NCBI RefSeq assembly: GCF_001512295.1
Contig: NZ_LNUP01000011.1
Span: 751,781-815,780 of the forward strand
Source of the DNA: Pseudomonas sp. EpS/L25
GTDB lineage: Bacteria > Pseudomonadota > Gammaproteobacteria > Pseudomonadales > Pseudomonadaceae
Direction: 5' to 3'
Length of the DNA: 64,000 nt
The notes beneath the pieces are model-generated. The model saw nothing but the letters and a program-made list of their open reading frames with translations. It searched no databases and was not told where the DNA came from. Within the stretch, counting starts at the first letter, position 1. The number at the start of each line of letters is the position of its first letter. Below, piece after piece: positions 16,808 through 31,187 of this stretch. Made by a program: the position numbers and the translations under genes.

Positions 16808-17098
16808 TCAGCGGTCGTCGGCGTGGATCGACGACGGATGTCGGCACAGCGCGGAGACCTCGATCTCCATGTAGGGATAGAGCGGCAACTGCATCAGGGT
16901 GTCGTGCAGCGCCTGGGCATCGGGTACGTCGAAGATGCTCACGTTGGCGTAGAGCCCGGCGATACGCCAGAGGTGGCGCCAGGTGCCTTCGCGCTGCAGG
17001 CGCTGGGCCAGCTCCTTCTCGGCGGCCTTGAGCCGGGCGGCCTGGTCGGCGGGCATCTCGGTAGGCAGCTTCACGGTCATGCGGACATGGAACAGCAT
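16808..17098 (-). CDS. catC: Muconolactone delta-isomerase
   Basis: The product is exactly 96 aa, as in characterised CatC. It starts MLFHVRMTVKLP, carries EKELAQRLQREGTWRHLWR and ends with LYPYMEIEVSALCRHPSS, all diagnostic. It isomerises muconolactone to 3-oxoadipate enol-lactone. The start at 17098 follows AGAGGAA. It sits 26 bases after catB and 45 bases before catA. The upstream extension of the frame overlaps catB and is not expected to be translated. Confidence 0.96.
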   Translation of the reverse strand: MLFHVRMTVKLPTEMPADQAARLKAAEKELAQRLQREGTWRHLWRIAGLYANVSIFDVPDAQALHDTLMQLPLYPYMEIEVSALCRHPSSIHADDR

Positions 17099-17124
17099 CT
17101 CGAAGATTCCTCTCTTGAGCGGGA

Positions 17125-18246
17125 TTAGCGACGGGCGAAGCGCGCCAGGCGCTCTTCGTCGAGGGCGATGCCCAGGCCCGGCGCGGTCGGCACCAGGAGC
17201 TGGAAATCCTGATAGCGCGGCGGCTCGACGAGGATGTCCTCGGTCAGCAGCAGTGGGCCGAAGAGTTCGGTGTGCCATTCCAGGCGGTCCAGGGTCGCGA
17301 AGGCATGGGCGCTGGCCAGCGTGCCGATGCTGCCTTCGAGCATGGTGCCGCCGTAGAGGCCGATGCCCGCGGCTTCGGCGATGGCGGCCGCGCGCAGTAC
17401 CGCTCGCGGGCCGCCGGTCTTGGCGATCTTCAGGGCGAAGATGGGCGCGACACCGGCCTGCGCCAGGGCGAAGGCATCGGGCACCGATTCGATGGCTTCG
17501 TCGGCCATCAGCGGGATCGGGCTATGGGCATTGAGGCGGGCCATGCCCAGGCGATCGTGGCGTGGCAAGGGTTGCTCGATCAGCTCGACGCCTACCTCGG
17601 CCAATTCACGCGCGGCCTTGATGGCCACCGCCTCGCTCCAGGCCTGGTTGACGTCGACCCGAACGGAGGCGCGGTCGCCTAGCGCACGCTTGATCGCCCC
17701 GACATGGGCGACGTCCTGCGCCGGGGTCCGGCTACCGATCTTGAGCTTGAAATGGCGGTGGCGACGCAGGTCGAGCAGGCGCTCGGCCTCTTCGATATCG
17801 CGGGCGGTATCGCCGCTGGCCAGGGTCCAGGCGCATTCCACGCCGTCCCGTACGCGCCCACCGAGCAACTCGGCCACCGGCAGGCCCAGGCGCTTGCCCT
17901 GGGCATCCAGGATGGCCGTCTCGACCGCGCTACGAGCAAAGGTATTGCCCCGCACGCTCCGGTCGAGGCGCTGCATGGCGGCGTTGAGGTTGCTGGCGTC
18001 TTGGCCCACCAGCAAGGGGGCGATCCAGGTATCGAGATTGGTCTTGATGCTTTCCGGGCTTTCGCCGGCGTAGCTCAGGCCGCCGATGGTGGTGGCCTCA
18101 CCCAGGCCGACGATACCGTCGCTGCAGTGGAGCTTGAGAATCACCAGCGTCTGACCGTGCATGGTGTGCATGGCGAGCTTATGCGGGCGAATGGTCGGCA
18201 GGTCGACGATCAAGGTCTCCAGCCGTTCGAAGAGGGGACGGGCCAT
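17125..18246 (-). CDS. catB: Muconate cycloisomerase I
   Basis: The product is 373 aa of the enolase superfamily. It converts cis,cis-muconate to muconolactone. Visible active-site features are the KLKIG lysine pair, metal ligands in RVDVNQAW, ELIEQPLP and LMADEAI, and the C-terminal LKIAKTGG lysine. The ATG at 18246 (MARPLFERLETLIVDLPTIRPHK) gives the family-typical N-terminus. It heads catBCA and is divergent from catR across about 100 bases that carry two dyads. Confidence 0.97.
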   Translation of the reverse strand: MARPLFERLETLIVDLPTIRPHKLAMHTMHGQTLVILKLHCSDGIVGLGEATTIGGLSYAGESPESIKTNLDTWIAPLLVGQDASNLNAAMQRLDRSVRGNTFARSAVETAILDAQGKRLGLPVAELLGGRVRDGVECAWTLASGDTARDIEEAERLLDLRRHRHFKLKIGSRTPAQDVAHVGAIKRALGDRASVRVDVNQAWSEAVAIKAARELAEVGVELIEQPLPRHDRLGMARLNAHSPIPLMADEAIESVPDAFALAQAGVAPIFALKIAKTGGPRAVLRAAAIAEAAGIGLYGGTMLEGSIGTLASAHAFATLDRLEWHTELFGPLLLTEDILVEPPRYQDFQLLVPTAPGLGIALDEERLARFARR

Positions 18247-18307
18247 GGGCTCAGTACCACTACGCGCTGTTGTTTGAGCCGAGATTGACGCGTGGAAAGG
18301 CCGCCGT

Positions 18308-18346
18308 CCAATATGGATTGGGTCTGGCTTCATACCCTGGAGGTAT
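18308..18346. promoter_or_regulatory. Putative CatR operator region between catB and catR
   Basis: Two dyads lie in the 101-bp divergent intergenic region: CCAAT-N4-ATTGG (18308-18321) and ATACC-N5-GGTAT (18332-18346). The second contains a LysR T-N11-A box and overlaps the catR ribosome site, a usual place for autorepression. On the minus strand a TTGGAC, a possible catB -35, lies inside the first dyad. The pair is spaced about 24 bases centre to centre. Confidence 0.55.
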
Positions 18347-18347
18347 C

Positions 18348-19238
18348 GTGGAACTGCGGCAGTTGCGCTACTTTCGCGTCTTGGCGAACACTCTGAACTT
18401 CACCCGCGCCGCCGAGCTGCTGCACATCGCCCAGCCGCCGCTGAGCCGGCAGATCCAGCAGATGGAAGAGGAACTCGGGGTGACGCTGGTGGAACGCGGG
18501 CGGCCACTCAAGCTGACCGATGCCGGCCGCTTCTTCAATGAACAGGCGTCGCAACTGCTCGAACAGTTCGAACGTCTCTGCGCCGATACCCGGCGCATGA
18601 GTGCGGCCAGCCGTCGTTTCCTCAGCATCGGCTTCGCGCCCTCGACCCTCTATGGCCAGTTGCCGGAACTGATCCGCCGCCTGCGCGCCCACGGCGACAT
18701 CGAGCTGAACCTCGCCGAGCTGATCACCCTGCAGCAGATAGAGGCCCTGAAGACCGGGCGTATCGACATCGGCTTCGGTCGCATCTTCATCGACGACCCG
18801 GCCGTCACCCAGTTCGTCCTGCGCGAAGATCCGCTGGTGGCCGTACTGCCCCAGGGTCATCCACTGCTGGCTGGGCCGGTGAGCCTGGCCCAGCTCGCCG
18901 AGCAGCCGTTCATCCTCTACCCCGGCTCGCCCCGCCCCAGCTACGCGGATCACGTGCTCAAGCTGTTCGCCAGCGAAGGCCTGACCATCCATGTGGCCCA
19001 GACCCCCAACGAGCTACAGACCGCCATCGGCCTGGTGGCGGCCGGCGTCGGCGTGACCCTGGTGCCGGCCTCGGTACAGCGCCTGCACCGCGACGACATC
19101 GGCTACACCGCCCTGCTGGACTCCCAGGCGACCTCGCCCATCGTGGTCAGCCACCGCACCGGCGACGGCTCGGCGATGCTGCTGGAGGTGTTGGCGGCGT
19201 TGCAGCAACTCGCGCCCGTGCCGGCGGCCTCGGACTAG
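18348..19238 (+). CDS. catR: LysR-type regulator of catechol catabolism
   Basis: From the GTG at 18348 (preceded by CTGGAGG) the product is 296 aa and starts with the classical LysR helix-turn-helix ([33 protein letters not shown]). The rest is a periplasmic-binding-like effector domain. Divergence from catBCA and the typical dyads identify it as CatR, which activates catBCA with cis,cis-muconate. A BenM-like dual role is possible. Its TAG stop overlaps the stop of the convergent chemoreceptor gene. The longer ATG-led frame from 18270 crosses the operator and is unlikely. Confidence 0.9.
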
Positions 19239-20860
19239 ACGGCGAACTCCTGCACCATCCGATTCAGACCGACGGCGAGCCTGGACACTTCCGCGCTGGC
19301 CGTGGCGGTCTGGGTCGCACCCGCCGCGCTCTGGGTCGCGAGATCGCGGATGCTGGTGATGTTGCGATCGATCTCCCGCGCTACCTGGGCCTGCTCTTCC
19401 GCCGCGGTGGCGATCACGGCATTGCGGTCGTTGATCTGGCCGATGGAACCGGCGATCTGCTCCAGCGAGGCATTGGCCAGTTGCGCCACCGCACTGGAAT
19501 CGCCGGCCAGTTGCTGACTCTGCTCCATGGCCCGTACGGCCTGGGACGAGTCATCCTGGATGGCGCCGATCATCTGCTCGATTTCCCGGGTCGACTGCTG
19601 GGTACGATGAGCCAGCGCCCGTACCTCGTCGGCGACCACGGCGAAGCCACGCCCCTGCTCGCCGGCCCGGGCGGCCTCGATGGCGGCGTTCAGCGCCAGC
19701 AGGTTGGTCTGCTCGGCGATGGAGCGAATGACCTCGACCACGGTGCTGATGTCCTGGGCGCGGGACGACAACGCCCGCACCTGCTCGCTGGTGCTGAGCA
19801 CATTGCGGGTCAGGGCCTCGATGGAGTGGACGGTGCGCGCCACCTTGTCCAGGCCTTCCTCGGTCAGGTCCTGGGTGTGGCGGGAGGTGGTGGCGGCATC
19901 GGCCGCGGTGAGTGCCACCTCGTCGACCGCCGAGCTCATCTCGGTCACCGCGCTGGCGGCCTGGTTGACCTCATCGTTCTGGCGAACGAGGCCACGACCG
20001 GCCTCTTCGATCACGGCCGTCATCTCTTCCGCGGCGGAGGCCAGCTGGGTCGAACTGTCGGCGATGTGGGACACGGTCTGGCGCAGATTGTCCTGCATCT
20101 GGGCGAGGGCCTGGAGCAACCCGGCAGCCTCGTCGCGACCGACCACGGTGATCCGCTCGGTCAGGTCCTTGCGGGCGATGCGCTCGGCGATGCGCAGGGC
20201 TTCGCCCACCGGCCGGGTAATGCTGCGGACCAGCAGTAGGGCCAGCACCACGGTCGCCAAAATGGTCAAGCCAATCAAGCCATAGACCCAGGCAAGGCCT
20301 TTCTTGAAGGTCGCTCCCGCGGCCACGCCCGCAGCCTGGGCGCCACGCTCGTTGAAGGTCATCAGCGCAGCGATGTTCTTTTCCAAGGCATTGGTGAGCG
20401 GGCGAATGGAGGTGTTGATCAGGTTGACGGCGCCCGCGTTGTCTCCCGCCCGCAGCTTGGGCTCGAAGGATTCCAGCAATTGGCGATAGGTATCGGCGCC
20501 CTGGACGACGGCGGCATATAGGCGGCGGTCCTCGTCGTTGGCGATGGTCCCTTCGTAGCCCTTGACGGCGTCGAAGAAGGCCGCGCGATAGCCCGGAAAG
20601 GCGGTGATGGTCTGCTCACGCAGGGCGGCGTCCGGCGTGGTGGTCGCCCTCAGGCTCTCCAGGCGCAGCCGCAGCAGCCCGCTGCCCATGCGGGCGGCGA
20701 GCTGGTTGCCTGGCAGCCAGTTGGTCTCGACATCCTGCTCCGCGTCGTACAGTCGATTCATCTGGACCACGGCCACCGCGCCGAGCACGAAGACGATCAG
20801 CACGATGACGGAGAAGAACAGCAGGGCACGCGGTGCGACTTTCAGACTGCGGAGACTCAT
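19235..20860 (-). CDS. Methyl-accepting chemotaxis protein with four-helix-bundle sensor
   Basis: The product is 541 aa: one N-terminal transmembrane helix, a periplasmic helical domain of about 150 residues of 4HB/TarH type, a second membrane helix at about 190-210, then HAMP and a long signalling coiled coil. The hairpin tip [34 protein letters not shown] is MCP-specific (quoted here in part as [19 protein letters not shown]). There is no C-terminal CheR-tethering pentapeptide. Position next to cat/ben genes suggests an aromatic-acid receptor such as PcaY, which has the same sensor type, but the ligand is an inference. Confidence 0.88.
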
Positions 20861-20991
20861 GGAGCGACACCCTTAAAATAGATTGACTAAAGGGCTATCG
20901 ACGCGACAGCGATGACTTGAGTCGGCGGTGATAAGCGGTCAGCGAGCCGCCTCCAGTGGTAGGCCTTTGTGTATCGTCATCCTTTATGGAT

Positions 20992-22344
20992 TCACAGCAG
21001 TCTCAAGGGGTAGTCCACGATCACACGCAGTTGGTCGACGGAGCCGCCGGTGGACGACGAACCCCGGTGCCAGGCCTGGCGCACCCGGATCGAAAGCCCC
21101 TTCGCCGAGCCGGATTGGACGATGTAGCGGCCTTCCAGGTTGAGCTCCCGCTCACGGTCCTCGGCGCCATAGAGACCGCGATAGGCACTGTTGGCAGGAA
21201 CGTCGCTGCCGTCGATGTCGGTGCCCTTGATATAGCGACTCATCAGGCTGAGTCCCGGCACGCCCAGGGTCTTGAAGTTCAGGTCGTAGCGCGCCTGCCA
21301 GGAGCGTTCGCCAGGTGCGTTGAAGTCGGAAAACATCGAGGCGTTGCCGAGGAACAGGCCGCCCCCGACGCGGCCGTTGTCACCCAGGCCGACATAGTCG
21401 AAGGGCGTATCGCCGTCGATCCGTTGCCAGCCGAGGGTGAACGTCTGGGGCCCCTGGCTGTAGGCCGCGGCAAGGCTGTAAGCGGTATTGTCGATGGGAC
21501 CGGCCTTGGCCGCCCCGGTGTCGAGCGTCCGGTAGAGGTTGGCGTCGAAGGTCAGCGACTGGGTACTGGACAGCGGCTTCACCAGATTCACATTGCCGTA
21601 GTACTGGTTCCAGATGTCGTCCAGTTGCGCGGCATAGAGGGACAGGCTGACGCCCTTGATCGGGCTGTACTTGCCGCCGGCGAAGTCGAGATGGTCGGCG
21701 CGCCGCCGCGCGTAACCGGCCCAGAGATCGCCATCGCGGTTGGTGCTGACCTGATCGGTCGCCGAGGTGAAATGCCCAGCTTCCACCCAGAGATCGGCGA
21801 TGTCGGCGCTCGCCAGGCTCCAGCCGGTGGCGGTTTGCGGCAGCAATCGGCTGGTGCTGATGGCGAATACCGGCGCGCTAGGCGTCTGCTGGCCATAGCG
21901 GACCACCGTCTTGGCCAGCCGCAGCTTTACCGCCGCGCCAGCACGGGAATACTCGTCGGCAGGCTGGTTGCCGGCATGCACCGGCAGATTACCGGTCCCC
22001 CGCCGCCCACGACCGCCGTCGAGTTTCAGCCCCAGGTGGCCGAAGGCGTCGACCCCGAGCCCCACGGTGCCGCGGGTGAAGCCGGACTGATAGTCCAGCA
22101 GGAACCCCTGGGTCCAGTCCTTTTGATCCAGGCGCCCATTGCGGCGATCACTGCCGAAGTAGTAGTTGCGGGCGGTCAACGTGAGCTTGCGGTCCTCCAC
22201 GAACCCCTCGGCGAGCACGTCTTCGCCATTCCCCAGCAGTGCCCATCCGCCGACTACCCCTAGGGCCAGCGAACCGAGCAGATTGCCGAGCCCGGGCCGG
22301 TGAGCGTTGACGCCTGTTACAGCCTGTTGAACCAAGCGTTCCAT
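20992..22344 (-). CDS. OprD-family outer-membrane porin
   Basis: The product is 450 aa with OprD/OccD features: alternating beta-strands with aromatic girdles, an NYYFGSDRRNG motif early on, GDLWAGYARRRADHL mid-protein and a C-terminal strand ending in VIVDYPLRLL. The N-terminal signal is unusual, with a polar start (MERLVQQAVTGVNAHRPG) ahead of the hydrophobic core. These specific porins take up amino acids, aromatic acids or metal complexes. It follows the ABC importer genes by 123 bases on the same strand and may be its outer-membrane gate. A benzoate porin role is the alternative. Confidence 0.88.
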   Translation of the reverse strand: MERLVQQAVTGVNAHRPGLGNLLGSLALGVVGGWALLGNGEDVLAEGFVEDRKLTLTARNYYFGSDRRNGRLDQKDWTQGFLLDYQSGFTRGTVGLGVDAFGHLGLKLDGGRGRRGTGNLPVHAGNQPADEYSRAGAAVKLRLAKTVVRYGQQTPSAPVFAISTSRLLPQTATGWSLASADIADLWVEAGHFTSATDQVSTNRDGDLWAGYARRRADHLDFAGGKYSPIKGVSLSLYAAQLDDIWNQYYGNVNLVKPLSSTQSLTFDANLYRTLDTGAAKAGPIDNTAYSLAAAYSQGPQTFTLGWQRIDGDTPFDYVGLGDNGRVGGGLFLGNASMFSDFNAPGERSWQARYDLNFKTLGVPGLSLMSRYIKGTDIDGSDVPANSAYRGLYGAEDRERELNLEGRYIVQSGSAKGLSIRVRQAWHRGSSSTGGSVDQLRVIVDYPLRLL

Positions 22345-22467
22345 GATTTCCTCTGGTCATTGGATACAAATCGCGCGTGTACGCCTGCCCGCCGCGATGG
22401 ATAGCCGTCCGGCTGGCAACAAGGGTGCGAAGGCTCACTCCCTCTTTCGGTGCGATGAATGGGGGTT

Positions 22468-23925
22468 TCAGTTCAGGGCTTCGGCGAGTCGCTCGGCTGA
22501 CGCGGACGGCCATGGGACACGGCTGCTCGGATCGCTCAGCTGAAGGCGTCGGTCGGATACGGCCCGGACCAGGTCCTCGTCGTGGCTGACCAGCAGGATG
22601 GCCGTACCCGCCTCCTTCGCCGTTTCCACCAGCAGCTCGATCATTTCCTGCTGGGTGATGAGGTCCAGTCGCGAGCTGGGCTCGTCGGCGAAGATGAGCG
22701 CTGGATCGAGCAACAGTACCCGCAGCAGTGAGAAACGCTGGAGCTCGCCCCCCGAAATGTTGCCTGGCAGACGGTCCAGCAGGCGCTCGTCGAGGCGCAG
22801 TCGCTGCATCAGCCGCCCGATGCGCGCCGCATCCAAGTGGTGCAGGCGAACCAGATCCGCCAGCAACTGGCGGATCGTAACCGAAGGGGCGAAGGCGGCG
22901 ACCGGGTCCTGGTGGAGCTTCTGGAAGGCGAAGCGGCTCAAGCCGTCCCGGCGCCGAAGCCGACCACCGCTGGGCGCCGCAAGACCGAGGAGGATGTCGC
23001 CCAGCGTGGACTTGCCACAGCCGGACGGCCCCGTCACGCCGAGGATCTCTCCCGGCCTGACCTCGAACGAGAGATCTTCGAACAACTGCCTGCCGCCACG
23101 GCTGGCGCTCAGGCCCTCGACCGTTACCACGGGCTCGCCCTCACCCGGCCGCTGCGGGCGACGGCTCCAATGCGCGGGATCGGCCGCCAGCAGTTGCCGG
23201 GTATAGGCGTGCCGGGGGGCGGCGAGCACCTGCTCCGCCGTGCCCGACTCGATCACCCGGCCCTTGAGCATGATCATCACCTCGCCACCGAGCCGTCGGG
23301 CGACCTCCAGGTCATGGGTGATGATCAGCAGACTACCGCCCTCGGCCAGCAGTGCCTCGAGCAGGCTGATCACCTCGTCGATACGGTCGCGATCCAGCCC
23401 CTTGGTGGGCTCATCGGCGATCAGCAGCGGCGCGCCGCCGGCATGGGTGGCGGCGAAGGCCAATCGCTGCGCCATGCCCCCCGACAGCTGGAAGGGATAC
23501 TTGCGCTCGGCGCCCGCGAGCCCCAGGCGCGCCAGGTCCGTCTTCGCCCTCTGCCGCGCCACTGCGCCCGTGAGTCCCACCACCTGGGTGTAGGTCTCGC
23601 TCACCTGGGCCAAGGCCCTCATGGTCGGGTCCAGGCTCAGCCAGGGCTCCTGGGGTAGCACCGCCAACCCCCTGCCCCACTGGCGGCGGCGCCCAGTCTG
23701 GCGCCCGTCCTCACTGAAGCCGTCCGCCAGGCCTATCCGGCCATGGGCTTCGAGGCCCGCCGGCAGGTTGCCGACGACCCCCTGGGCGAACAGGCTCTTG
23801 CCCGAGCCGGTCTCGCCGATGATCGACAGCACCTGCCCCGGCGCCAGGCTGATGGACAGCGGCTCAACCAGCGGCGTATCGCCGGCGCGGATTGCCAGCG
23901 CCGTGGTGGTCAGCAAGGCGGTCAT
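22468..23925 (-). CDS. Fused dual ATP-binding subunit of a peptide/nickel-type ABC importer
   Basis: The product is 485 aa and contains two complete nucleotide-binding domains, equivalent to DppD plus DppF or NikD plus NikE. The first has Walker A GETGSGKS, signature LSGGMAQR and Walker B LLIADEPTKGLD. The second (from about residue 255) has GPSGCGKST, ISGGELQR and LIFADEPSSRLD. The halves are shorter than separate Opp/Dpp subunits. ATG at 23925 overlaps the permease stop as ATGA. The frame extends upstream but only in antisense-like sequence. Confidence 0.93.
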   Translation of the reverse strand: MTALLTTTALAIRAGDTPLVEPLSISLAPGQVLSIIGETGSGKSLFAQGVVGNLPAGLEAHGRIGLADGFSEDGRQTGRRRQWGRGLAVLPQEPWLSLDPTMRALAQVSETYTQVVGLTGAVARQRAKTDLARLGLAGAERKYPFQLSGGMAQRLAFAATHAGGAPLLIADEPTKGLDRDRIDEVISLLEALLAEGGSLLIITHDLEVARRLGGEVMIMLKGRVIESGTAEQVLAAPRHAYTRQLLAADPAHWSRRPQRPGEGEPVVTVEGLSASRGGRQLFEDLSFEVRPGEILGVTGPSGCGKSTLGDILLGLAAPSGGRLRRRDGLSRFAFQKLHQDPVAAFAPSVTIRQLLADLVRLHHLDAARIGRLMQRLRLDERLLDRLPGNISGGELQRFSLLRVLLLDPALIFADEPSSRLDLITQQEMIELLVETAKEAGTAILLVSHDEDLVRAVSDRRLQLSDPSSRVPWPSASAERLAEALN

Positions 23926-24743
23926 GGCTTGCGTCCTCCGGTGATGAGCAGCAGCGCCAGCACGGTCAGGAAGATCGCGCAGATCGGCAGGGCGATGACG
24001 AAGGGCGCCTCGGCGTAATAGGGCAACAATTCGGTGATCATCAAGCCCAGCTCCGCGGTCGGCGGTCGCACGCCGATGCTGACGAAACCCAGCGCGGCGA
24101 TGGCCATGATGGTCGAGGCGGCGCCGAAAGCGGCGATGGTCAGCAGCACTGGCGCCAGCTGCGGCCAGAGGTGTCGTCGCACGATGTAGACCGGTCCGAA
24201 CCCCAGCAACTGGCTGGCGGATACCGCTGACGAGGCCAGCACGGTGCGCGACAGCGCCCGGGTCATGCGGAAGTACTCCACCCACAAGACCAGCGCGACG
24301 GCGCTATAAAGCGCCACGAAGGAGCCGGGAAACACCGCGACGATCAGCAACACCAGCAGCAGTCCCGGCACGGCCAGGAACAGCTCGGCCACCCCGCCCA
24401 GCAGCTTGTCCACCCAACCGCCCTTCCAGGCCGCCAGGATGCCCAGCAGCAGGCCGGGAATGGCGGCGGTGCAGACACTGATGAAGGCCAGCCCCAGGGA
24501 AAAACGCAGGGCCACCGACAGCCGCGCGAGCATGTCGCGCCCCAGGTGGTCGGTACCCAGGGGATAGGTGCCGTTGGGCGTCGCGAGGATCGCCAGGTAG
24601 TCCTGGCGGGCGATGTCGCCCTGCCAGAGCAGCGGGACGAGCACGGCGAAGGCGATCAGGGCCACCAGCAGGCCCACTCCCAGCGTCCGGGCACCGGTGC
24701 GCGCAGGAGGCGCCGTGAGCACGGCAGCGCTTTCCAGGTTCAT
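23922..24743 (-). CDS. ABC importer permease, DppC/NikC type
   Basis: The product is 273 aa with six predicted membrane helices. The N-terminal cytoplasmic segment leads into a helix and the family signature GTYPLGTDHLGRDMLARL, as in DppC, OppC and NikC. The EAA coupling loop is in the region of LGFGPVYIVRRHLWPQLAPVLL. Its ends overlap both neighbours as ATGA, so the four import genes are tightly coupled. Substrate cannot be read from the permease. Confidence 0.92.
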   Translation of the reverse strand: MNLESAAVLTAPPARTGARTLGVGLLVALIAFAVLVPLLWQGDIARQDYLAILATPNGTYPLGTDHLGRDMLARLSVALRFSLGLAFISVCTAAIPGLLLGILAAWKGGWVDKLLGGVAELFLAVPGLLLVLLIVAVFPGSFVALYSAVALVLWVEYFRMTRALSRTVLASSAVSASQLLGFGPVYIVRRHLWPQLAPVLLTIAAFGAASTIMAIAALGFVSIGVRPPTAELGLMITELLPYYAEAPFVIALPICAIFLTVLALLLITGGRKP

Positions 24744-25675
24744 GCGGGCCTCCCGCGCGGATCGAGCAGATGGTTGGCCAAATCGACCGCCGTATTGAGG
24801 AGGACGAACAGGAGCCCCATCGCCAGGGCCGTGCCCTGTACCATGGGCACGTCGCGCTGGACGATGGCATGGACCAACCCGTGGCCGATGCCGGGCCAGG
24901 CGAACAGTGTCTCCACCACCACCACGCCCTCGATGAGATACACCAGCTGCACGCCCAGATAGGTCACCACCGGCACGCCGATGTTGCGCAGGCCATGGCG
25001 CAGGAAGACGCTGGCACCGCGCAACCCCTTGAGGCGTCCGAAGCCGTAGTAGGCCGAGGCGGCCACCTCGACAGTGGCATCCCGGGCCACGCGGGACGAC
25101 ACCGCTGCCAGTCCCAGGGCGAGGGTCAAGGTCGGTAACACGCTGTGCCAGAAGGTGCCATGTCCGGCCGCCGGGAACAGCCGCCAGGAGATGGCGAACA
25201 GCAGCACGAAGAGCACGCCCAGGACGAATTGCGGCAACGCCCGGATCGCCGTGGTCAGCACCAGCAGAAAGCGGTCCGGCAGACGGCCCGGCCGTAGCCC
25301 GGCCAGCACCCCCAGCGGCGGGCCGATCAGCAAGGACAGGCAGACCGCACCTATGGCCAGGCGCACGGAGCTGCCCAGCTCATGGGCGACCACCTCGATC
25401 ACCGGTTTGCCGGAAACCAGCGAATGCCCGAGATCGAGGGTCAGCAGATCGCCGATCCAGGCCAGGAAGCGCCACAGCAGCGGCTGGTCGAGCGCCAGTT
25501 CCGCTCGCACCGCCTCGGCGGCCGCCGTGTCCACCAGGTCGTAGCCATAGCGTCCGGCGGCGATGCGGTAGGCGGCGTCTCCTGGCAGCAGGCTCATGAA
25601 CAGAAACGTCAGAGCGCCTACCAGCAGAGCCACCAGGCCCGCCTGCAGCAGGCGGAAGGTCAAAAGGCGCGTCAT
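24740..25675 (-). CDS. ABC importer permease, DppB/NikB type
   Basis: The product is 311 aa. It begins with a membrane helix followed by a large periplasmic loop, then five more helices. LALDQPLLWRFLAWIGDLLTLDLG is the typical DppB/OppB/NikB loop (quoted in part as LALDQPLLWRF and DLLTLDLG), and the EAA loop is GLRGASVFLRHGLRNI. ATG at 25675 overlaps the binding-protein stop as ATGA. It forms the channel with the downstream DppC-like subunit. Confidence 0.92.
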   Translation of the reverse strand: MTRLLTFRLLQAGLVALLVGALTFLFMSLLPGDAAYRIAAGRYGYDLVDTAAAEAVRAELALDQPLLWRFLAWIGDLLTLDLGHSLVSGKPVIEVVAHELGSSVRLAIGAVCLSLLIGPPLGVLAGLRPGRLPDRFLLVLTTAIRALPQFVLGVLFVLLFAISWRLFPAAGHGTFWHSVLPTLTLALGLAAVSSRVARDATVEVAASAYYGFGRLKGLRGASVFLRHGLRNIGVPVVTYLGVQLVYLIEGVVVVETLFAWPGIGHGLVHAIVQRDVPMVQGTALAMGLLFVLLNTAVDLANHLLDPRGRPA

Positions 25676-27204
25676 TCGATCCACCGCATCTTGCTCAGGC
25701 CAAAGGTCCGCTCGAAGGGATCTATGGCCGCCCCTTCGACGGCAGTGGACACGGCGAGGGTCTGCCGATACCAGGCCACCGGAATCACCGGCAGTTCCTG
25801 CTGGACCTGGGCCATGGCGATGCGGCGTTGCCGCTGCTGCTCGGCCGGGTCGTCGGTGGCCAGCAGGGACGTCAGCGCCTGGTCGAAAGTGGCATTCTTC
25901 CAGCCCAACGGCCCCCACTCGGCGCCGCCGTGACTGAAATCGTTGAGCAGCGTGACCAGGGGATCAGGTACCAGAGCGAAGTTACGGCCATAGAGCGCCA
26001 ACTGCAGCGAGCCGTCGTGATGGGCCGCCGGGATGGCACTGGAGTTCTGCACTGCGACCTCCACGTCCACTCCCACCTCACGCAACTGCGCCTGCAGCGC
26101 CGTGGCGATCAGCGGCAGCTCCGGGCGATCGGAGTAGGTCAGCAGCTTGAGCCTGAGCGGCGTGCCGTCCTTTTGCAGGATGCCGTCGGTCCTGGGCGTC
26201 CAGCCCTGCCCGGCCAGCAGCTGGCGCGAAGCTGCAGGATCGTAAGCCAGTGGCGCCAGCTGCGGGTCGTGCCAGGCCGGCACGTTCTTGGCGAACAGTT
26301 GGGTCGCCCCCGTCCCCGGCGCACGCAACACGGCGGCGGCAACCCCTTCACGCTGGATGGCGAGGCTGAGCGCCCTGCGTACCTCTGCCGAGGCTGTGGC
26401 GCCCGCGCCGGAATTGGGAGTCAGCAACACCACCCGGGGCACTGGCTCGATCAGCACCTTGAGGCTGCTGGAGCGCCTAAGTCTGGCGATGCTCGGCGGG
26501 TCCAGCTGGAACACCAGCTCGGCATCGCCGCTCTCGGCCATCAGGGTGCGCGTCTCGCCGCGGCCAGCGGCCAGATAGGTCGTCCTGCCGATCTGCGGCC
26601 GCGGGCCCCAATAGCCGTCGAAGCGCTCCGCGGCCAGTCGCTGGGGCGGCTCCAGAAGCGTCAGCCGATAGGGGCCGGTCCCGATGATCCGCTGTACCCT
26701 GCCCTCGGCGTCGTAGGACGCCGCCGCGAGGATATTGGTGGAGGAATGGGCCAGCAACGCCAACAGCGGCTTGAAGGGCTTGCCGAGCTGGATCACCACC
26801 TCGTTGCCTTGCGCGGTGACCGCCTCGATGCCGGCCTGCCGGAGCACCCCGGGCTTGCCCCGCGCGGCATTCAGGGCAGCCGCGGCGACCTCTGCCGTGA
26901 GGTCGCTGCCATCATGGAATTTCACCCCCTGGCGCAGGGTCAGGCGCCAGGTCCGGCCATCCGCCGACACCTGCCACGCCTGCGCCAGACCCGGAGCGGG
27001 CTGCCCCTGGGCATCCGCCTCCAGCAACGTCTCCGCGATCTGCATGCGCTGGAAGACGAAGCCGGAGATCGACGGGTCCAGGCCACCGATCTCGAAGGGC
27101 CCGACCACGTCGAATACCCGGTCCTGGGCAAAGGCACCCGGCAAGGCCAGGAGGGTCAGCGTCGATGCGGTAACGGCGGTACGGATGAAGCGCGGGATAG
27201 GCAT
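25672..27204 (-). CDS. Periplasmic substrate-binding protein, SBP_bac_5 family (peptide/nickel type)
   Basis: From the ATG at 27204, preceded by AAGGA, the product is 510 aa. A Sec signal ends at about LALPGAFAQ. It has family-5 landmarks: WQVSADGRTWRLTLRQGVKFHDGS, GTGPYRL and FDGYWGPRP. Oligopeptide, dipeptide, opine and nickel binders all share this fold; there is no lipobox. It is the first gene of the importer operon, about 175 bases downstream of a Zur-like palindrome. That context makes a zinc complex or metallophore a candidate ligand, which is inference. Confidence 0.9.
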   Translation of the reverse strand: MPIPRFIRTAVTASTLTLLALPGAFAQDRVFDVVGPFEIGGLDPSISGFVFQRMQIAETLLEADAQGQPAPGLAQAWQVSADGRTWRLTLRQGVKFHDGSDLTAEVAAAALNAARGKPGVLRQAGIEAVTAQGNEVVIQLGKPFKPLLALLAHSSTNILAAASYDAEGRVQRIIGTGPYRLTLLEPPQRLAAERFDGYWGPRPQIGRTTYLAAGRGETRTLMAESGDAELVFQLDPPSIARLRRSSSLKVLIEPVPRVVLLTPNSGAGATASAEVRRALSLAIQREGVAAAVLRAPGTGATQLFAKNVPAWHDPQLAPLAYDPAASRQLLAGQGWTPRTDGILQKDGTPLRLKLLTYSDRPELPLIATALQAQLREVGVDVEVAVQNSSAIPAAHHDGSLQLALYGRNFALVPDPLVTLLNDFSHGGAEWGPLGWKNATFDQALTSLLATDDPAEQQRQRRIAMAQVQQELPVIPVAWYRQTLAVSTAVEGAAIDPFERTFGLSKMRWIE

Positions 27205-27252
27205 GGTGTTCCTTACGAGCGACTGTCTCATCGCAGCCCGAGCCGCGATAAA

Positions 27253-27311
27253 AAGGGCAGAAAGTGGCTGGCTCTACGGGCCCAGGGTACCGACGGGGCC
27301 GTCCTGCCCTT
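27253..27311 (-). promoter_or_regulatory. Leader stem-loop with T-run ahead of the importer operon
   Basis: In the 5' leader of the binding-protein gene (minus strand) AAGGGCAG (27311-27304) pairs with CTGCCCTT (27260-27253), followed at once by TTTATCG. Together this gives a CTGCCCTTTTTA end. A smaller GACGG-CC-CCGTC hairpin lies inside. The shape is that of a conditional terminator. I recognise no known riboswitch core in it. Confidence 0.4.
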
Positions 27312-27379
27312 CGGCTGCCAATCCGTCACCCGGGCGATCCGGCCTGCGCCCGATCTGAGCCAGCCCACTAAAGACGCAC

Positions 27380-27392
27380 GTTATATCATAAC
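27380..27392 (-). promoter_or_regulatory. Zur-like operator overlapping a -10 box
   Basis: The minus strand reads GTTATGATATAAC, a perfect GTTAT-N3-ATAAC dyad differing by one base from the gammaproteobacterial Zur consensus GTTATAATATAAC as I know it. The embedded TATGAT is a good -10 hexamer, so a bound repressor would block transcription. Only the importer operon lies downstream. Confidence 0.6.
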
Positions 27393-27614
27393 AATTTCAT
27401 TGAGTTAGTAACCCAGGCGTCGACGCAACATCCTGAAACAACAGTCTTTTCCGTCGAGCCGGACCGTTCCTGTCAGGTCACCATTACCAGCGGGATGTCT
27501 TCAAAAAGGGCCGATCCAGGCGATCAGCCGTGAGAGCGACGCCTGGACTCGGACCAAGGGAAACCGTCATGCCCCAAGCGGGGACGGCCCACCATCGCTA
27601 ATGGTGCGGCTCGA

Positions 27615-28187
27615 TCAGGCGGCTACGCTCAGCCCGCTGCTGGAGCCGCTGGAGGTACCGTAGCTGCCAATGCTCTGGTACTGGCGCAGAACTGCCTGAA
27701 CCAGCTGACCGTAGGGAGTCGAGGTGGCCTGGGTGGTCGTATCGCTGGACGTCTGAGCCTCGCTCGACTTCGGCGGCGGGGGTGGCGGCAGGCGTCCGCC
27801 GTTACCTCCGCTGCTGGCCAGGCTCTCGCCTGAACCTTGGGCTTCACCCGCGGGCGGTGGCGCGAATACCGAAGCGAATTCGTTCTCGCCCACGCTACCG
27901 TCGCCATTCTGGTCCAGCATGCCGAGCAGCTTGTCGACGTCGATGTCACCGCTGGCAGCATCGCTGTCCTGGCTGTCACTGGCCGCGCTGGCGGCAGTGG
28001 TGAGCTCGCTCTTGCTGATGGTGCCATCGCCGTCACTATCGAGCTTGGTGAACAGCTTCTTGAGCGGATTGTCGTCATCGCTACCACTGATGCCACTGTC
28101 CGCCCTGCCGCTACTGTTGCAGTTGCCTTTGATCGCGCTGGCACTGCCGTAGTAGCTGGAGTAGCCACTGCCTATTCCGCTGATCAT
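27615..28187 (-). CDS. EF-hand calcium-binding protein
   Basis: From the ATG at 28187, preceded by CAGGAG, the product is 190 aa without a Sec signal. Two canonical EF-hand loops are present: DSDGDGTISKSE (about residue 50) and DQNGDGSVGENE (about 92). The rest is low-complexity: Ser/Gly-rich at both ends and a PPPPPP stretch in the middle. The N-terminus MISGIGSGYSSYYG resembles start regions of similar proteins in Xanthomonas and Pseudomonas, from memory. Such two-hand proteins are calcium sensors or buffers, and some are exported effectors. Its role here is unknown. Confidence 0.8.
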   Translation of the reverse strand: MISGIGSGYSSYYGSASAIKGNCNSSGRADSGISGSDDDNPLKKLFTKLDSDGDGTISKSELTTAASAASDSQDSDAASGDIDVDKLLGMLDQNGDGSVGENEFASVFAPPPAGEAQGSGESLASSGGNGGRLPPPPPPKSSEAQTSSDTTTQATSTPYGQLVQAVLRQYQSIGSYGTSSGSSSGLSVAA

Positions 28188-28291
28188 GGGAATTTCTCCT
28201 GGAAGGTACGAGACGTAGGTATCCCGCACGCTCCAGTATCCGGTCGCCACGTATCGGCGATTTACCGCCTTTGTATGCCCATCGATACAAC

Positions 28292-28472
28292 CTAGTGTGG
28301 TGTTTCAGAAGTTGACTGCACAATTTGGCGGCGCTTTTTCGCCGCAAAGGCGGACCTCCCGGGCGTTGTTGCCACTCCTCGCCATAGCCCTGCCATGACT
28401 CGTCCCGGCGCCCAGCCCAAGCCAAAAACTCACTCGCCAGTTCTTGCGCGAACTTCTGAAACACCACACTAG
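28292..28472. mobile_element. MITE-like element, 181 bp, with perfect 22-bp terminal inverted repeats
   Basis: Bases 28292-28313 and 28451-28472 are exact inverted copies of each other over 22 positions. Both ends carry CTAG at the outer edge, so the element may be 173 bp with TGTGGTGTTTCAGAAGTT ends and a 4-bp CTAG target duplication of the IS5-group YTAR type. The inside has no transposase gene and contains a local hairpin (GGCGGC...GCCGCC-like around 28330-28350). It is probably a non-autonomous derivative of an IS. The right end overlaps the stop codon of the sensor kinase. Confidence 0.8.
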
Positions 28473-29536
28473 GACGGCGGGCGATGCATCGTCACCTGGC
28501 AGGTCAGGCCGCCCCCTGGCGTTTCCTCCAGACTCAGCTCGCCGCCCATGTGCGCCGCTGCCTCGCGGGCGATGGCCAGCCCCAGCCCCGTACCACCGGA
28601 AGACCTGTTGCGTGAGCCTTCGAGGCGATAGAAGGGTTCGAACACCGCCTCATGCAAGGCCGCAGGAATGCCCGGCCCGTGATCGACGATGCGAATGACC
28701 AGGCGATCGGATCGCTCTACCAGGTGGATTTCCGCGTGGCCCGCATAGCGCAGGGCATTCTGCAGCAGATTGGTCAGGCACGAACGCAGCGCCATAGGCG
28801 CTACCCACAAGGGCACGCACGTACCCTCGACGGACACCTGGGCGCCCTCCTCCTCGGCATCCTCGGCCATGGCCTCGACCAGCGCCTGGACGTCACACAG
28901 CACCGGACACTCCTCGCGATGCTGTTCCCGCAGATACCTCAGGGTGCCATCGAGCAAGGCGATCATGTCGTCCACGTCCTGGCTGACCCGGGCATGCAGC
29001 CGGGGATCGTCGATGTCTTCGATGCGCAGCTTCACCCGGGCCAGGGGCGTGCGCAGGTCGTGGGAGATGGCGGTGAGCATGCGGCCACGCTGCTGGATCT
29101 GCTCGAGCAGGTGCTGATGCATGCGATTGAGCGCCCGGGCGGCTTCGCGGGTTTCCCAGGGGCCGGTGACGGGAATGGGCGAGCCATCGAGATTGTGGCT
29201 CAGCTGCTCGGCGGTCTGCGTCAACTGGCGCAGGGGCCGGGTCAACAAGCGCGCGCCCAGCCAGGCTGCGATCACCAGCGAGCCCAGCTGGAACACCAGC
29301 GGCCCGCCCAGCAGCCACTCCACGCGTCGCCACCAGTTGGGCTCCTTGTCGGGAAGACGTTCCGGTGGCGGCGGTGGCCGCTCGAAGGGCGCTTCCCGCA
29401 TCGCCAGCGGAGGTCGGGGCGGCGGTCGGTCGCGGAACTCATGGCGGAACCAGAAGAAAGCCAGCAGGTGTCCAAGCAGGATGGCCAGCAGGAACACGCC
29501 GAACAGCCGCGCGAACAGGGTATCCAGGCGCCGCAT
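28469..29536 (-). CDS. Sensor histidine kinase of a two-component system
   Basis: The product is 355 aa: one N-terminal membrane helix, a short proline-rich periplasmic loop (PPPRPPL, PPPPPERLP), a second helix at about 82-98, HAMP, then HisKA with the phospho-His in AISHDLRTPLARVK (about residue 160). The HATPase_c motifs follow: NLLQNALRY (N box), DHGPGIP (G1) and GGTGLGLAI (G2). The TAG stop (28469-28471) lies within the right end of the MITE, so the last residues may have been altered by its insertion. The paired regulator is directly upstream. Confidence 0.92.
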   Translation of the reverse strand: MRRLDTLFARLFGVFLLAILLGHLLAFFWFRHEFRDRPPPRPPLAMREAPFERPPPPPERLPDKEPNWWRRVEWLLGGPLVFQLGSLVIAAWLGARLLTRPLRQLTQTAEQLSHNLDGSPIPVTGPWETREAARALNRMHQHLLEQIQQRGRMLTAISHDLRTPLARVKLRIEDIDDPRLHARVSQDVDDMIALLDGTLRYLREQHREECPVLCDVQALVEAMAEDAEEEGAQVSVEGTCVPLWVAPMALRSCLTNLLQNALRYAGHAEIHLVERSDRLVIRIVDHGPGIPAALHEAVFEPFYRLEGSRNRSSGGTGLGLAIAREAAAHMGGELSLEETPGGGLTCQVTMHRPPS

Positions 29537-29538
29537 GA

Positions 29539-30279
29539 CTAGGCGCCTATCTGCTTGGCATCGAACAGATAGCCTTCCCCGCGCACCGTCTTGATCAACT
29601 GGGGCGAGCGGGGGTCATCGCCCAGCTTCTGTCGCAAGCGGGACACCTGCAGGTCGATGCTCCGATCAAAGGCCTCGATGGCGCGGCCCCGCGTGGCATC
29701 GAGCAGCTGCTCCCGGCTCAGGACGTGGCGTGGGTGTTCGATGAACACCCACAGCAGCCGCACCTCGGCATTGGACAGAGGCACCATCACGCCCGCGGGC
29801 GAATGCAACTGATGCAGGACCCCGTCCAGCTTCCAGCCATCGAAGCTGACACAGGTCCGCGGCGCCTTGCGCGGGGCATGGCGATTGTCCTGCGTCCGCC
29901 TTAACACCGACTGGATACGGGCCACCAGCTCCCGCGGCTCGAACGGCTTGGCCATGTAGTCGTCGGCGCCAAGCTCCAGCCCGATGATCCGGTCGGCAGG
30001 CTCGCACTGGGCGGTCAACATCAGGATGGGAATGCCGCTGTCCCGCCGCAGCGCGCGGCAGAGGGACAGGCCGTCCTCCCCGGGCAGCATCAGATCCAGC
30101 ACGACCAGGTCGAACGCCTCTTCCGCCAGAGCCTGGCGCATCTCTCGCCCATCGCCCACCCCCCGCGCAAGGATGCTGAACCGCGCCAGATATCCGCAGA
30201 TCAACTCACGAATCGGCGGATCGTCGTCCACCAGCAGAATGCGGGACGTCCAGCGCGGGGATTCGGATGGAAGCGACAT
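29539..30279 (-). CDS. OmpR-family response regulator
   Basis: The product is 246 aa from the ATG at 30279 (MSLPSESPRW, with an AGGTAA box). An ATG seven codons upstream is possible but has no clear box. The receiver has VDDDPP, phospho-Asp in VVLDLMLPGEDG, Thr in MLTAQ and Lys in MAKPFEPREL. A winged-helix output domain follows, with RSIDLQVSRLRQKLGDDP and IKTVRGEGYLF. It lies two bases before the kinase gene start and is co-transcribed. Closest known relatives are OmpR/TctD-like regulators, and the target genes are unknown. Confidence 0.92.
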   Translation of the reverse strand: MSLPSESPRWTSRILLVDDDPPIRELICGYLARFSILARGVGDGREMRQALAEEAFDLVVLDLMLPGEDGLSLCRALRRDSGIPILMLTAQCEPADRIIGLELGADDYMAKPFEPRELVARIQSVLRRTQDNRHAPRKAPRTCVSFDGWKLDGVLHQLHSPAGVMVPLSNAEVRLLWVFIEHPRHVLSREQLLDATRGRAIEAFDRSIDLQVSRLRQKLGDDPRSPQLIKTVRGEGYLFDAKQIGA

Positions 30280-31187
30280 CGTAGTTACCTGAACAGTCAT
30301 ACGACTAGGACGGGCATGCTAGCGCTCCACGCAGGTCCTAGCCACGGCTAGGCTTGTACGGTTGTGTAAAGGTGGTGAGCCCATGGATACGCCGGTTTCG
30401 ACGCCTCGCGGAAACAACGCGAGCCAGTATGCGAACCGGCCCGTCATCACTGCTCGGGCGTACAGGATTCTTGATAGACTCTTGGGGCCATCCTGGCGGA
30501 AACGAGCAAACCGTCGATTATCGTCGCCCGCCGCCCTTCCGCCGCTCATTACCCGCCGATGCGTCGTTCGTCATTCACCACCTGCTGTCCCGACCAGTCG
30601 GGCAGATCCTCCCAGACCAAACCCACATTGTCGGTCGTGCACCTGAGCCTAACTGGGGAACAGTCGTAACGGTCCCCCAGCCCTCTAGCGAAAAAGAGGG
30701 TCACGGCATGCGTGAGAAAAGTGCGCGCAATGCAGGGATTCGCAGGGGACTTTCAGCTTGCCGCATCCCTACTCCGCTCCAGTAGCGGCGCCGGCTGGAG
30801 CCAGGTGCAGGGCTGCAGAAAAAGCGAACCCTTTAGCCCGCAGGCGTGGCGGGGGGACGACTACGCGCGCTGGGGGTAGTCCAGACGACTGCCCTCTCGC
30901 CCGCATTTACACAGCCGCGAATCGCTTGCTAGGCGTTACCTTACCTATCCTTGGCCCACAAAAAAGCCGCCCGAAGGCGGCACTCTTGAATAGCGAATCA
31001 GCTAATGAGTAAGAGTCGGACAACACCAATTTCTAAGCGCGATCACCTGTAAAAACAACTCAGCCTTTCTAGGCAGAATCTCATCCCTATACGTAAGCAC
31101 TCAGAGCCCCTCACAAAATTCCTTCATGTTTAAAGCCTAGCCAAAGCAGATCTACCTCTCAAATTACAATTATATCTCACAACCCAT
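30280..31187. other. Long non-coding stretch with several stem-loops
   Basis: About 900 bases hold no gene I can support. The left part is GC-rich and structured. A nested hairpin at 30391-30440 pairs GCCGGTTTCG with CGAACCGGC outside and CTCGCG with CGCGAG inside. Two adjacent hairpins lie at 30653-30680 (CTGGGG/CCCCAG) and 30681-30700 (CCCTCT/AGAGGG). From about 30985 the sequence turns AT-rich, matching the SDR genes beyond. The beginning must carry the promoter of the two-component system. No tRNA or known small RNA was recognised. Confidence 0.5.
30957..30981 (-). terminator. Rho-independent terminator of the SDR gene pair
   Basis: The stem GCCGCC/GGCGGC (30966-30971 and 30976-30981) with a CGAA tetraloop is followed on the minus strand by TTTTTTGTGG. 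Only minus-strand transcripts, coming from the SDR pair, meet the T-run after the stem. Confidence 0.8.

Follow-up and report, generated by a model that had tools for sequence, protein, structure and literature searches.

Results and Discussion

A putative Zur-controlled operon for an importer and a porin

How zinc chelates enter Gram-negative bacteria is poorly understood, and the way of the pseudopaline complex from the periplasm to the cytoplasm of P. aeruginosa is described as unknown (PMC10393844). We examined one operon of Pseudomonas sp. EpS/L25, in which the genes of a family-5 ATP-binding cassette (ABC) importer are followed by that of an OprD-family porin. The operon lies in a 64,000-nucleotide stretch (contig NZ_LNUP01000011.1, positions 751,781 to 815,780), called the window below, whose numbering is used throughout. 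The minus strand of 20992-27392 holds a run of five genes for a binding protein, two permeases, a fused double ATPase and the porin. The dyad GTTATGATATAAC at 27380-27392 (-), an exact match to the Zur-box motif GTTAT-N3-ATAAC, stands 175 bases ahead of the binding-protein start codon at 27204. An initial annotation made from the letters alone had reported such a dyad ahead of the five-gene run; the arrangement proved to be real, and all the gene families were confirmed by Pfam. With a probability of about 60%, we read the locus as a Zur-repressed zinc-acquisition operon that imports a small zinc chelate. Strong sequence support exists for the presence and conservation of the Zur box, for the gene-family assignments, and for the zinc-related neighborhoods of some relatives.

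The first gene (25672-27204, -) encodes a NikA-like family-5 periplasmic binding protein of 510 amino acids (Pfam SBP_bac_5, E 2.6e-68). The protein starts with MPIPRF, has an alternative in-frame ATG at 27231, and carries a signal peptide by inspection; its predicted model has a mean predicted local distance difference test score (pLDDT) of 92.4. The NikB-like (24740-25675, -; 311 amino acids) and NikC-like (23922-24743, -; 273 amino acids) inner-membrane permeases both match Pfam BPD_transp_1. The fused double ABC ATPase (22468-23925, -; 485 amino acids) contains two Pfam ABC_tran stretches, corresponding to NikD/NikE-like halves, with the Walker A and signature motifs intact in both by inspection. 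At each of the three junctions between these four genes, 4 bases are shared, and the gene of the OprD-family porin (20992-22344, -; 450 amino acids; Pfam OprD, E 9.6e-145) follows 123 bases further on.

The exact dyad is rare in the genome. It occurs five times in 5.435 Mb, compared with no occurrence of the reversed pattern used as a control and with about 0.6 expected genome-wide from the base composition of the window alone. The other four copies lie just upstream of znuC-znuB-znuA, a zigA gene with folE2 after it, a DUF4440/SnoaL-like gene, and a dksA paralogue whose product, by inspection, has lost most of its zinc-finger cysteines. The znu, dksA-like and zigA-folE2 kinds of genes are among the Zur targets listed for Pseudomonas in Table 3 of PMC6103462. 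A genome-wide scan allowing one mismatch returned only noise (21 sites versus 28 in the control), so within this genome only the exact dyad carries weight. The genome also has a Zur-like gene, which exceeds the Pfam cut-off for the FUR family (38 bits versus 23.1) and has Zur as its best NCBIfam match (107.8 bits, under the cut-off of 167). It adjoins a divergent ZnuA gene (Pfam), and an ABC ATPase gene lies downstream.

Two apparent znu systems are present in the genome, namely znuCBA with an exact dyad (L001:7708-7720) and the znuA that is divergent from the zur-like gene, without one. The DUF4440/SnoaL-like gene behind its exact dyad (L002:7633-7645 in a stretch of the same genome) is followed by a TerC-like gene, as judged by eye. 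A reading frame of similar appearance adjoins hisI2 and hemB in Pseudomonas sp. S37, and the DUF4440/SnoaL-like gene is a candidate for a little-known zinc-starvation gene.

Conservation of the box and the operon

A tblastn match was found in 104 loci. One of them (L099) had no usable start and was omitted, leaving 103 rows that include the window and loci fetched twice. A non-redundant set of 58 representatives at <80% identity, the window included, was drawn from the 102 loci with more than 380 residues. A strict box was defined as a dyad with at most one mismatch or an exact alphaproteobacterial 15-mer.

The binding protein was present in 12 of 13 genomes of the genus, and the exact dyad stood upstream of the operon in 11 of the 12 (window included), the twelfth being a 43% identical relative with a degenerate dyad. 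Over the 103 rows, the best dyad upstream of the binding protein was exact in 25 and had one mismatch in 16, compared with 0 and 5 for the reversed pattern. The signal persisted after redundancy was removed: 11 of the 58 loci had the exact dyad, versus 0.015 expected in shuffles, and 23 had a strict box, versus 0.54 expected in dinucleotide shuffles. The exact alphaproteobacterial box was found upstream in all 16 alignment rows from Rhizobiaceae and Phyllobacterium, and the Aureimonas row was two mismatches off. Of the 130 plasmid records found, 8 were examined for context, two coming from the same strain; all 8 had a box with at most one mismatch (dyad or 15-mer) in a scan that had no control. 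In seven the box was no more than 300 bases from the binding protein, and in the eighth it stood before the CobW gene. On these comparisons, Zur control of the operon appears close to certain. Absence of the dyad upstream of orthologous operons had been named in the initial annotation as grounds for refuting the Zur link, and with this conservation the link was not refuted.

The binding-protein gene was found in 20 of 248 genomes of the family sample (E 1e-100 or better), in 16 of 398 of the phylum sample (1e-70), and in 6 of 385 from another class of the phylum (1e-70). The best 80 of 82 named relatives belonged to Pseudomonas, Rhizobiaceae, Acetobacteraceae, Burkholderiales, Vibrio, Psychrobacter, Azotobacter and others, with one verrucomicrobium. 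The binding protein, at least one permease and the fused ATPase were kept together in nearly all of these named loci, the second permease often not being called separately. The verrucomicrobium, Persicirhabdus sediminis, lies outside Pseudomonadota and has a 38% identical copy of the system.

Several relatives have zinc-related genes as neighbors. In P. matsuisoli, a dksA-like gene runs divergently from the operon and has a CobW/COG0523 gene beyond it; the opposite flank carries a threonyl-tRNA-synthetase-like gene and a hexapeptide-repeat gene that looks carbonic-anhydrase-like by eye. The neighbors of the operon in Pseudomonas sp. S31 and S37 are hisI2, hemB, a dksA2-like gene and a gene for a pyrC2-like amidohydrolase. 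A CobW gene directly precedes the operon in a betaproteobacterial metagenome-assembled genome, and zigA is divergent from it on a Pantoea ananatis plasmid. On a Paracoccus aestuarii plasmid, a Fur-family regulator gene and znuA directly follow the operon, and a second copy lies near a zinc binding-protein gene. A Pseudosulfitobacter plasmid has the order CobW/COG0523 gene, DUF6525 gene, operon. Together with the conserved boxes, these neighborhoods bear out the link to Zur that the initial annotation had proposed.

Exchange of the outer-membrane partner

The closest structures of the porin in the PDB were those of Porin D (2odj, 3sy7 and 4foz; 474 to 466 bits), followed by the histidine porin OpdC (300 bits) and others at 243 bits or less. 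Porin D (OprD) is also called OccD1. The operon oprD appears to be an extra copy, because two further porins encoded in the genome are 57-58% identical to it. Among the 80 named loci and the window, an OprD porin followed the operon in 11 of the 80 named loci, all from Pseudomonas.

A receptor-sized gene lay directly before the operon in 15 of the 103 loci, and three of these leaders were Pfam-confirmed TonB receptors, one of the three being taken from a duplicate copy of the Azotobacter locus. In 2 of the 15, from Azotobacter vinelandii CA and P. cuatrocienegasensis, the receptor-sized gene was preceded by a box with at most one mismatch. The swap of the outer-membrane partner, OprD in some loci and a TonB receptor in others, suggests that the cargo is a specific small compound. 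In the window itself, the region 17000-31000 agrees with the earlier statement that neither metallophore synthesis genes nor a TonB receptor lie beside the operon.

Identity of the importer and clues to its cargo

The nearest solved relatives of the binding protein were Brucella and E. coli NikA by single sequence, and B. halodurans NikA and S. aureus CntA by profile. By fold, NikA proteins led, with many family-5 proteins, peptide-binding ones included, scoring nearly as high. None of the five proteins reached the cut-off of a curated NCBIfam family among those listed (for the ATPase the top 25 of 196, for the porin one). The binding protein scored 184 with NikA (cut-off 393), 217.7 with NF045468 (cut-off 600) and 132.6 bits with CntA (cut-off 800). 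The permeases gave 219.3 with NikB (cut-off 447) and 154.9 with NikC (cut-off 358.45), and their best NCBIfam matches were also under the cut-offs (Opp2B for the NikB-like protein, 266.9 bits versus 350; Opp2C for the NikC-like protein, 163.5 versus 300). The best match of the ATPase was NikD (248.4 bits, cut-off 318.7), with NikE at 208.2 (cut-off 332.55). Identity as a NikA or CntA equivalog was rejected, since the curated cut-offs were not reached.

Binding-site positions were compared in an alignment of 66 binding proteins, comprising the window and 65 of 77 listed locus sequences. At the position of NikA Arg137 and CntA Arg140, the window has Ser, and Arg occurs in 16 of the 66 rows, all from Rhizobiaceae or Phyllobacterium. 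At alignment columns 152-154 (numbered on P0001), His occupied column 152 in 47 of the 66 rows, and an E-x-R motif was seen in 16, again all from Rhizobiaceae or Phyllobacterium. This split between His-152 and E-x-R suggests two ligand-binding modes.

The opine-synthesis family PF10100 was found in none of the 13 genus genomes, in a search in which no control matched either. PF03059 exceeded its cut-off in none of the 13 and matched below it in 6, with one control matched. With neither opine-synthesis family above its cut-off in these genomes, and with the curated CntA score unreached, an opine becomes a weaker candidate for the cargo.

A proposed transport route

In the reading of the window operon as a zinc-acquisition system, zinc-loaded Zur would sit on the dyad at 27380-27392 and block transcription when zinc is plentiful. 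When zinc is scarce, Zur would leave the dyad and all five genes would be made, presumably as a single transcription unit that includes oprD. The OprD-type porin, which would be the entry gate, may pass a small complex of zinc with an organic ligand across the outer membrane. Once in the periplasm, the intact complex would be captured by the NikA-like protein and then pumped inward by the permease pair and the fused ATPase. A zinc chelate is the most probable cargo, and the main rival is a peptide or metabolite. The chelate would come from other organisms or involve a common metabolite such as histidine, and the cargo would then be neither free zinc nor a plain peptide. In favor of this, the closest relatives of the binding protein are NikA and CntA, both of them carriers of metal chelates.

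A broader reading is tentative, and we rate it somewhat below even odds. It takes the relatives as a widespread, mostly proteobacterial and often Zur-controlled importer family for zinc on small organic chelators mostly made elsewhere, with an inner-membrane machine that stays the same and an outer-membrane gate that differs from lineage to lineage. The ligand might then be a "borrowed zincophore" or a common metabolite, e.g. zinc-histidine or plant nicotianamine, a proposal of similarly limited confidence. The gate would, with the same reserve, be an OprD-type porin in some Pseudomonas and a TonB-dependent receptor in others.

Several results weigh against the zinc-acquisition reading. In the region tested, 35 of the 58 non-redundant loci lacked a strict box, and among the loci at least 65% identical only 15 of 25 reached the strict threshold. 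Of the 15 receptor-led operons, 13 had no box with at most one mismatch before the receptor-sized gene either, including all 9 named Burkholderiales loci, so zinc control is not universal in the importer family. No zinc gene lay beside the operon in 4 of the 8 plasmid loci, and two of these four adjoined iron or heme transport genes. Nickel-linked genes (HupE/UreJ, HypD and larB) were seen near some relatives. The window has His at the residue aligned to the metal-binding His416 of NikA, so named in the title of PDB 3qim, but His was seen in only 6 of the 66 rows, and the residue varies within the genus; a role of this histidine as a metal ligand in the manner of NikA was rejected, since the position is not conserved. 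The co-transcription of oprD with the importer genes has to be presumed across the gap that precedes it. The dyad had also been said to cover a TATGAT -10 box. Those letters are indeed present inside it, but a consensus scan of 20850-27700 gave no sigma-70 promoter-like site.

Alternative explanations

The strongest alternative is that Zur controls the scavenging of a peptide, amino acid or metabolite whose synthesis or salvage fails without zinc, so that zinc is the signal and not the cargo. We consider it unlikely. Family-5 importers carry many solutes, and metabolic bypass enzymes belong to Zur regulons; the hisI2, pyrC2-like and hemB paralogues lie beside the operon in Pseudomonas sp. S31 and S37. 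The ranking of the porin, with Porin D first and the histidine porin OpdC next, would suit such a cargo, as would the dipeptide- and oligopeptide-binding proteins that nearly equal NikA in fold score. PMC5387054 likewise notes that nickel need not be the solute of cluster C transporters. However, the two best curated relatives of each inner-membrane or periplasmic part were nickel or staphylopine transporters, not Dpp or Opp, although none was over its cut-off. The receptor-sized leaders, three of them confirmed TonB receptors, also fit a scarce chelate better than a peptide.

Import of a nickel or cobalt chelate under Zur, with another metal being taken up when zinc is short, is less probable still. 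The subunits scored best against nickel-transporter models, and a HupE/UreJ gene in Aliagarivorans, larB near the Pseudosulfitobacter operon and HypD a few kb from the Azomonas-type locus are compatible with it. All the listed scores were nevertheless under the curated Nik cut-offs, the equivalent of NikA His416 is not kept, and several of the neighborhoods are zinc neighborhoods. HupE/UreJ genes are usually nickel-linked; such a gene (L109:7352-7921; also in L091 and L096) directly precedes the operon in Aliagarivorans (Pfam) and in Vibrio (by similarity). The Azomonas-type locus (L033:960-2093) has the hydrogenase-maturation gene HypD (Pfam) a few kb from a receptor-led operon, and larB lies near the operon in Pseudosulfitobacter.

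That the dyad is a chance match or the site of another regulator, and the operon an ordinary peptide importer, is very improbable and was rejected: base composition alone does predict 0.6 copies, but the reversed control was zero, three of the four other exact dyads precede recognized kinds of Zur target, and the conservation in the genus and the comparison with shuffles go far beyond chance.

Comparison with known systems

Zinc control of family-5 importers is already known from the precedent of pden1341-1344 in Paracoccus denitrificans. This "Ni/dipeptide ABC transporter" was up-regulated 12.6- to 16-fold in zinc-depleted and 7.7- to 9-fold in zinc-chelated medium (PMC5387054). A Zur box lies 26-40 bases upstream of it, and Zur bound its promoter in gel shifts (PMC5387054). 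The authors regard the zinc control as somewhat unusual and leave the substrate open (PMC5387054). Like it, the window operon has a cluster C (family-5) binding protein, two permeases, an ATPase and an upstream Zur box. Unlike it, the window operon includes an OprD porin, which is not part of the published Pden1341-1344 operon; the latter is linked to a COG0523 gene and two hypothetical genes. Relatives in Paracoccus aestuarii are 49% identical and have a one-mismatch box about 36 bases upstream, and the Paracoccus and Pseudosulfitobacter relatives fall into a supported group with the window clade (99/96, midpoint-rooted tree). Because these relatives share the gene order and the box and group with the window on the tree, the window operon and Pden1341-1344 are likely to be orthologous, as far as sequence comparison can tell.

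The nickel importer NikABCDE is under NikR control. It resembles the window operon in having a family-5 binding protein, two permeases and two ATPase units, and NikA is among the nearest solved structures. The window operon differs in staying below the NikA-E cut-offs, in its fused ATPase and Zur box, and in a His416 equivalent that is not conserved in the family. The staphylopine importer CntABCDF is a family-5 chelate importer for zinc and other metals, and CntA was among the top PDB profile matches. In contrast to that system, the genus genomes yielded neither an opine dehydrogenase nor a nicotianamine synthase above the cut-off, and the window has Ser at the position of CntA Arg140.

ZnuABC and AztABC share with the window operon Zur control and the proposed function in zinc acquisition, and the genome also has znu systems. 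They differ in using cluster A-I binding proteins, which bind zinc directly according to PMC5387054, whereas the window operon encodes a family-5 protein. Pseudopaline uptake in P. aeruginosa (ZrmA/CntO) is a zinc-responsive uptake of a zinc chelate in Pseudomonas, as is proposed here, but it relies on a TonB receptor and an opine of its own. For the pseudopaline gene clusters, PMC7438024 reports no inner-membrane import system; it also describes family-5 importers in opine-zincophore gene clusters.

The operon is a variant of a known but little-studied kind of importer. An OprD-linked family-5 operon in a Zur regulon was not found in the PMC literature searched, and the OprD-coupled Pseudomonas variant, the breadth of the family and the exchange of the outer-membrane partner were likewise not found there and are apparently new. 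A Zur-regulated oprD may have been noted before, because the footnote of Table 3 in PMC6103462 defines oprD (outer-membrane porin), although none of the rows available holds oprD.

The locus adds an inner-membrane importer of the kind that carries chelates, under predicted zinc control. Its Zur boxes recur in relatives across Pseudomonas, Rhizobium, Paracoccus and Pantoea, and a loose annotation as a nickel or dipeptide transporter becomes a directly testable zinc route. We know of no earlier zinc route through an OprD porin, so that the widespread-family reading, if true, would give the first one. Zinc control of an OprD-type porin, if true, would also be a second link between zinc and the OprD family. 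The known link, in P. aeruginosa, concerns CzcR and carbapenem entry (PMC10393844).

Flanking features and a variant gene order

Upstream of the operon, 27615-30300 (-) holds an EF-hand protein gene and a two-component system, with no sign of membership in the operon. A terminator-like hairpin lies between the EF-hand gene and the dyad at 27509-27529 (-), found by consensus scan only in a weak scan (2 sites versus 3.4 expected in shuffles); this hairpin, read from 27529 to 27509, would fit the operon being a separate transcription unit.

EamA proteins are linked to opine zincophore export elsewhere. In two genomes, probably of Alphaproteobacteria, an EamA-type gene is inserted between the binding-protein and permease genes, with a CobW/COG0523 gene upstream. 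The inserted gene was confirmed by Pfam in one locus (L139:3823-4737) and recognized by eye in the other (L140).

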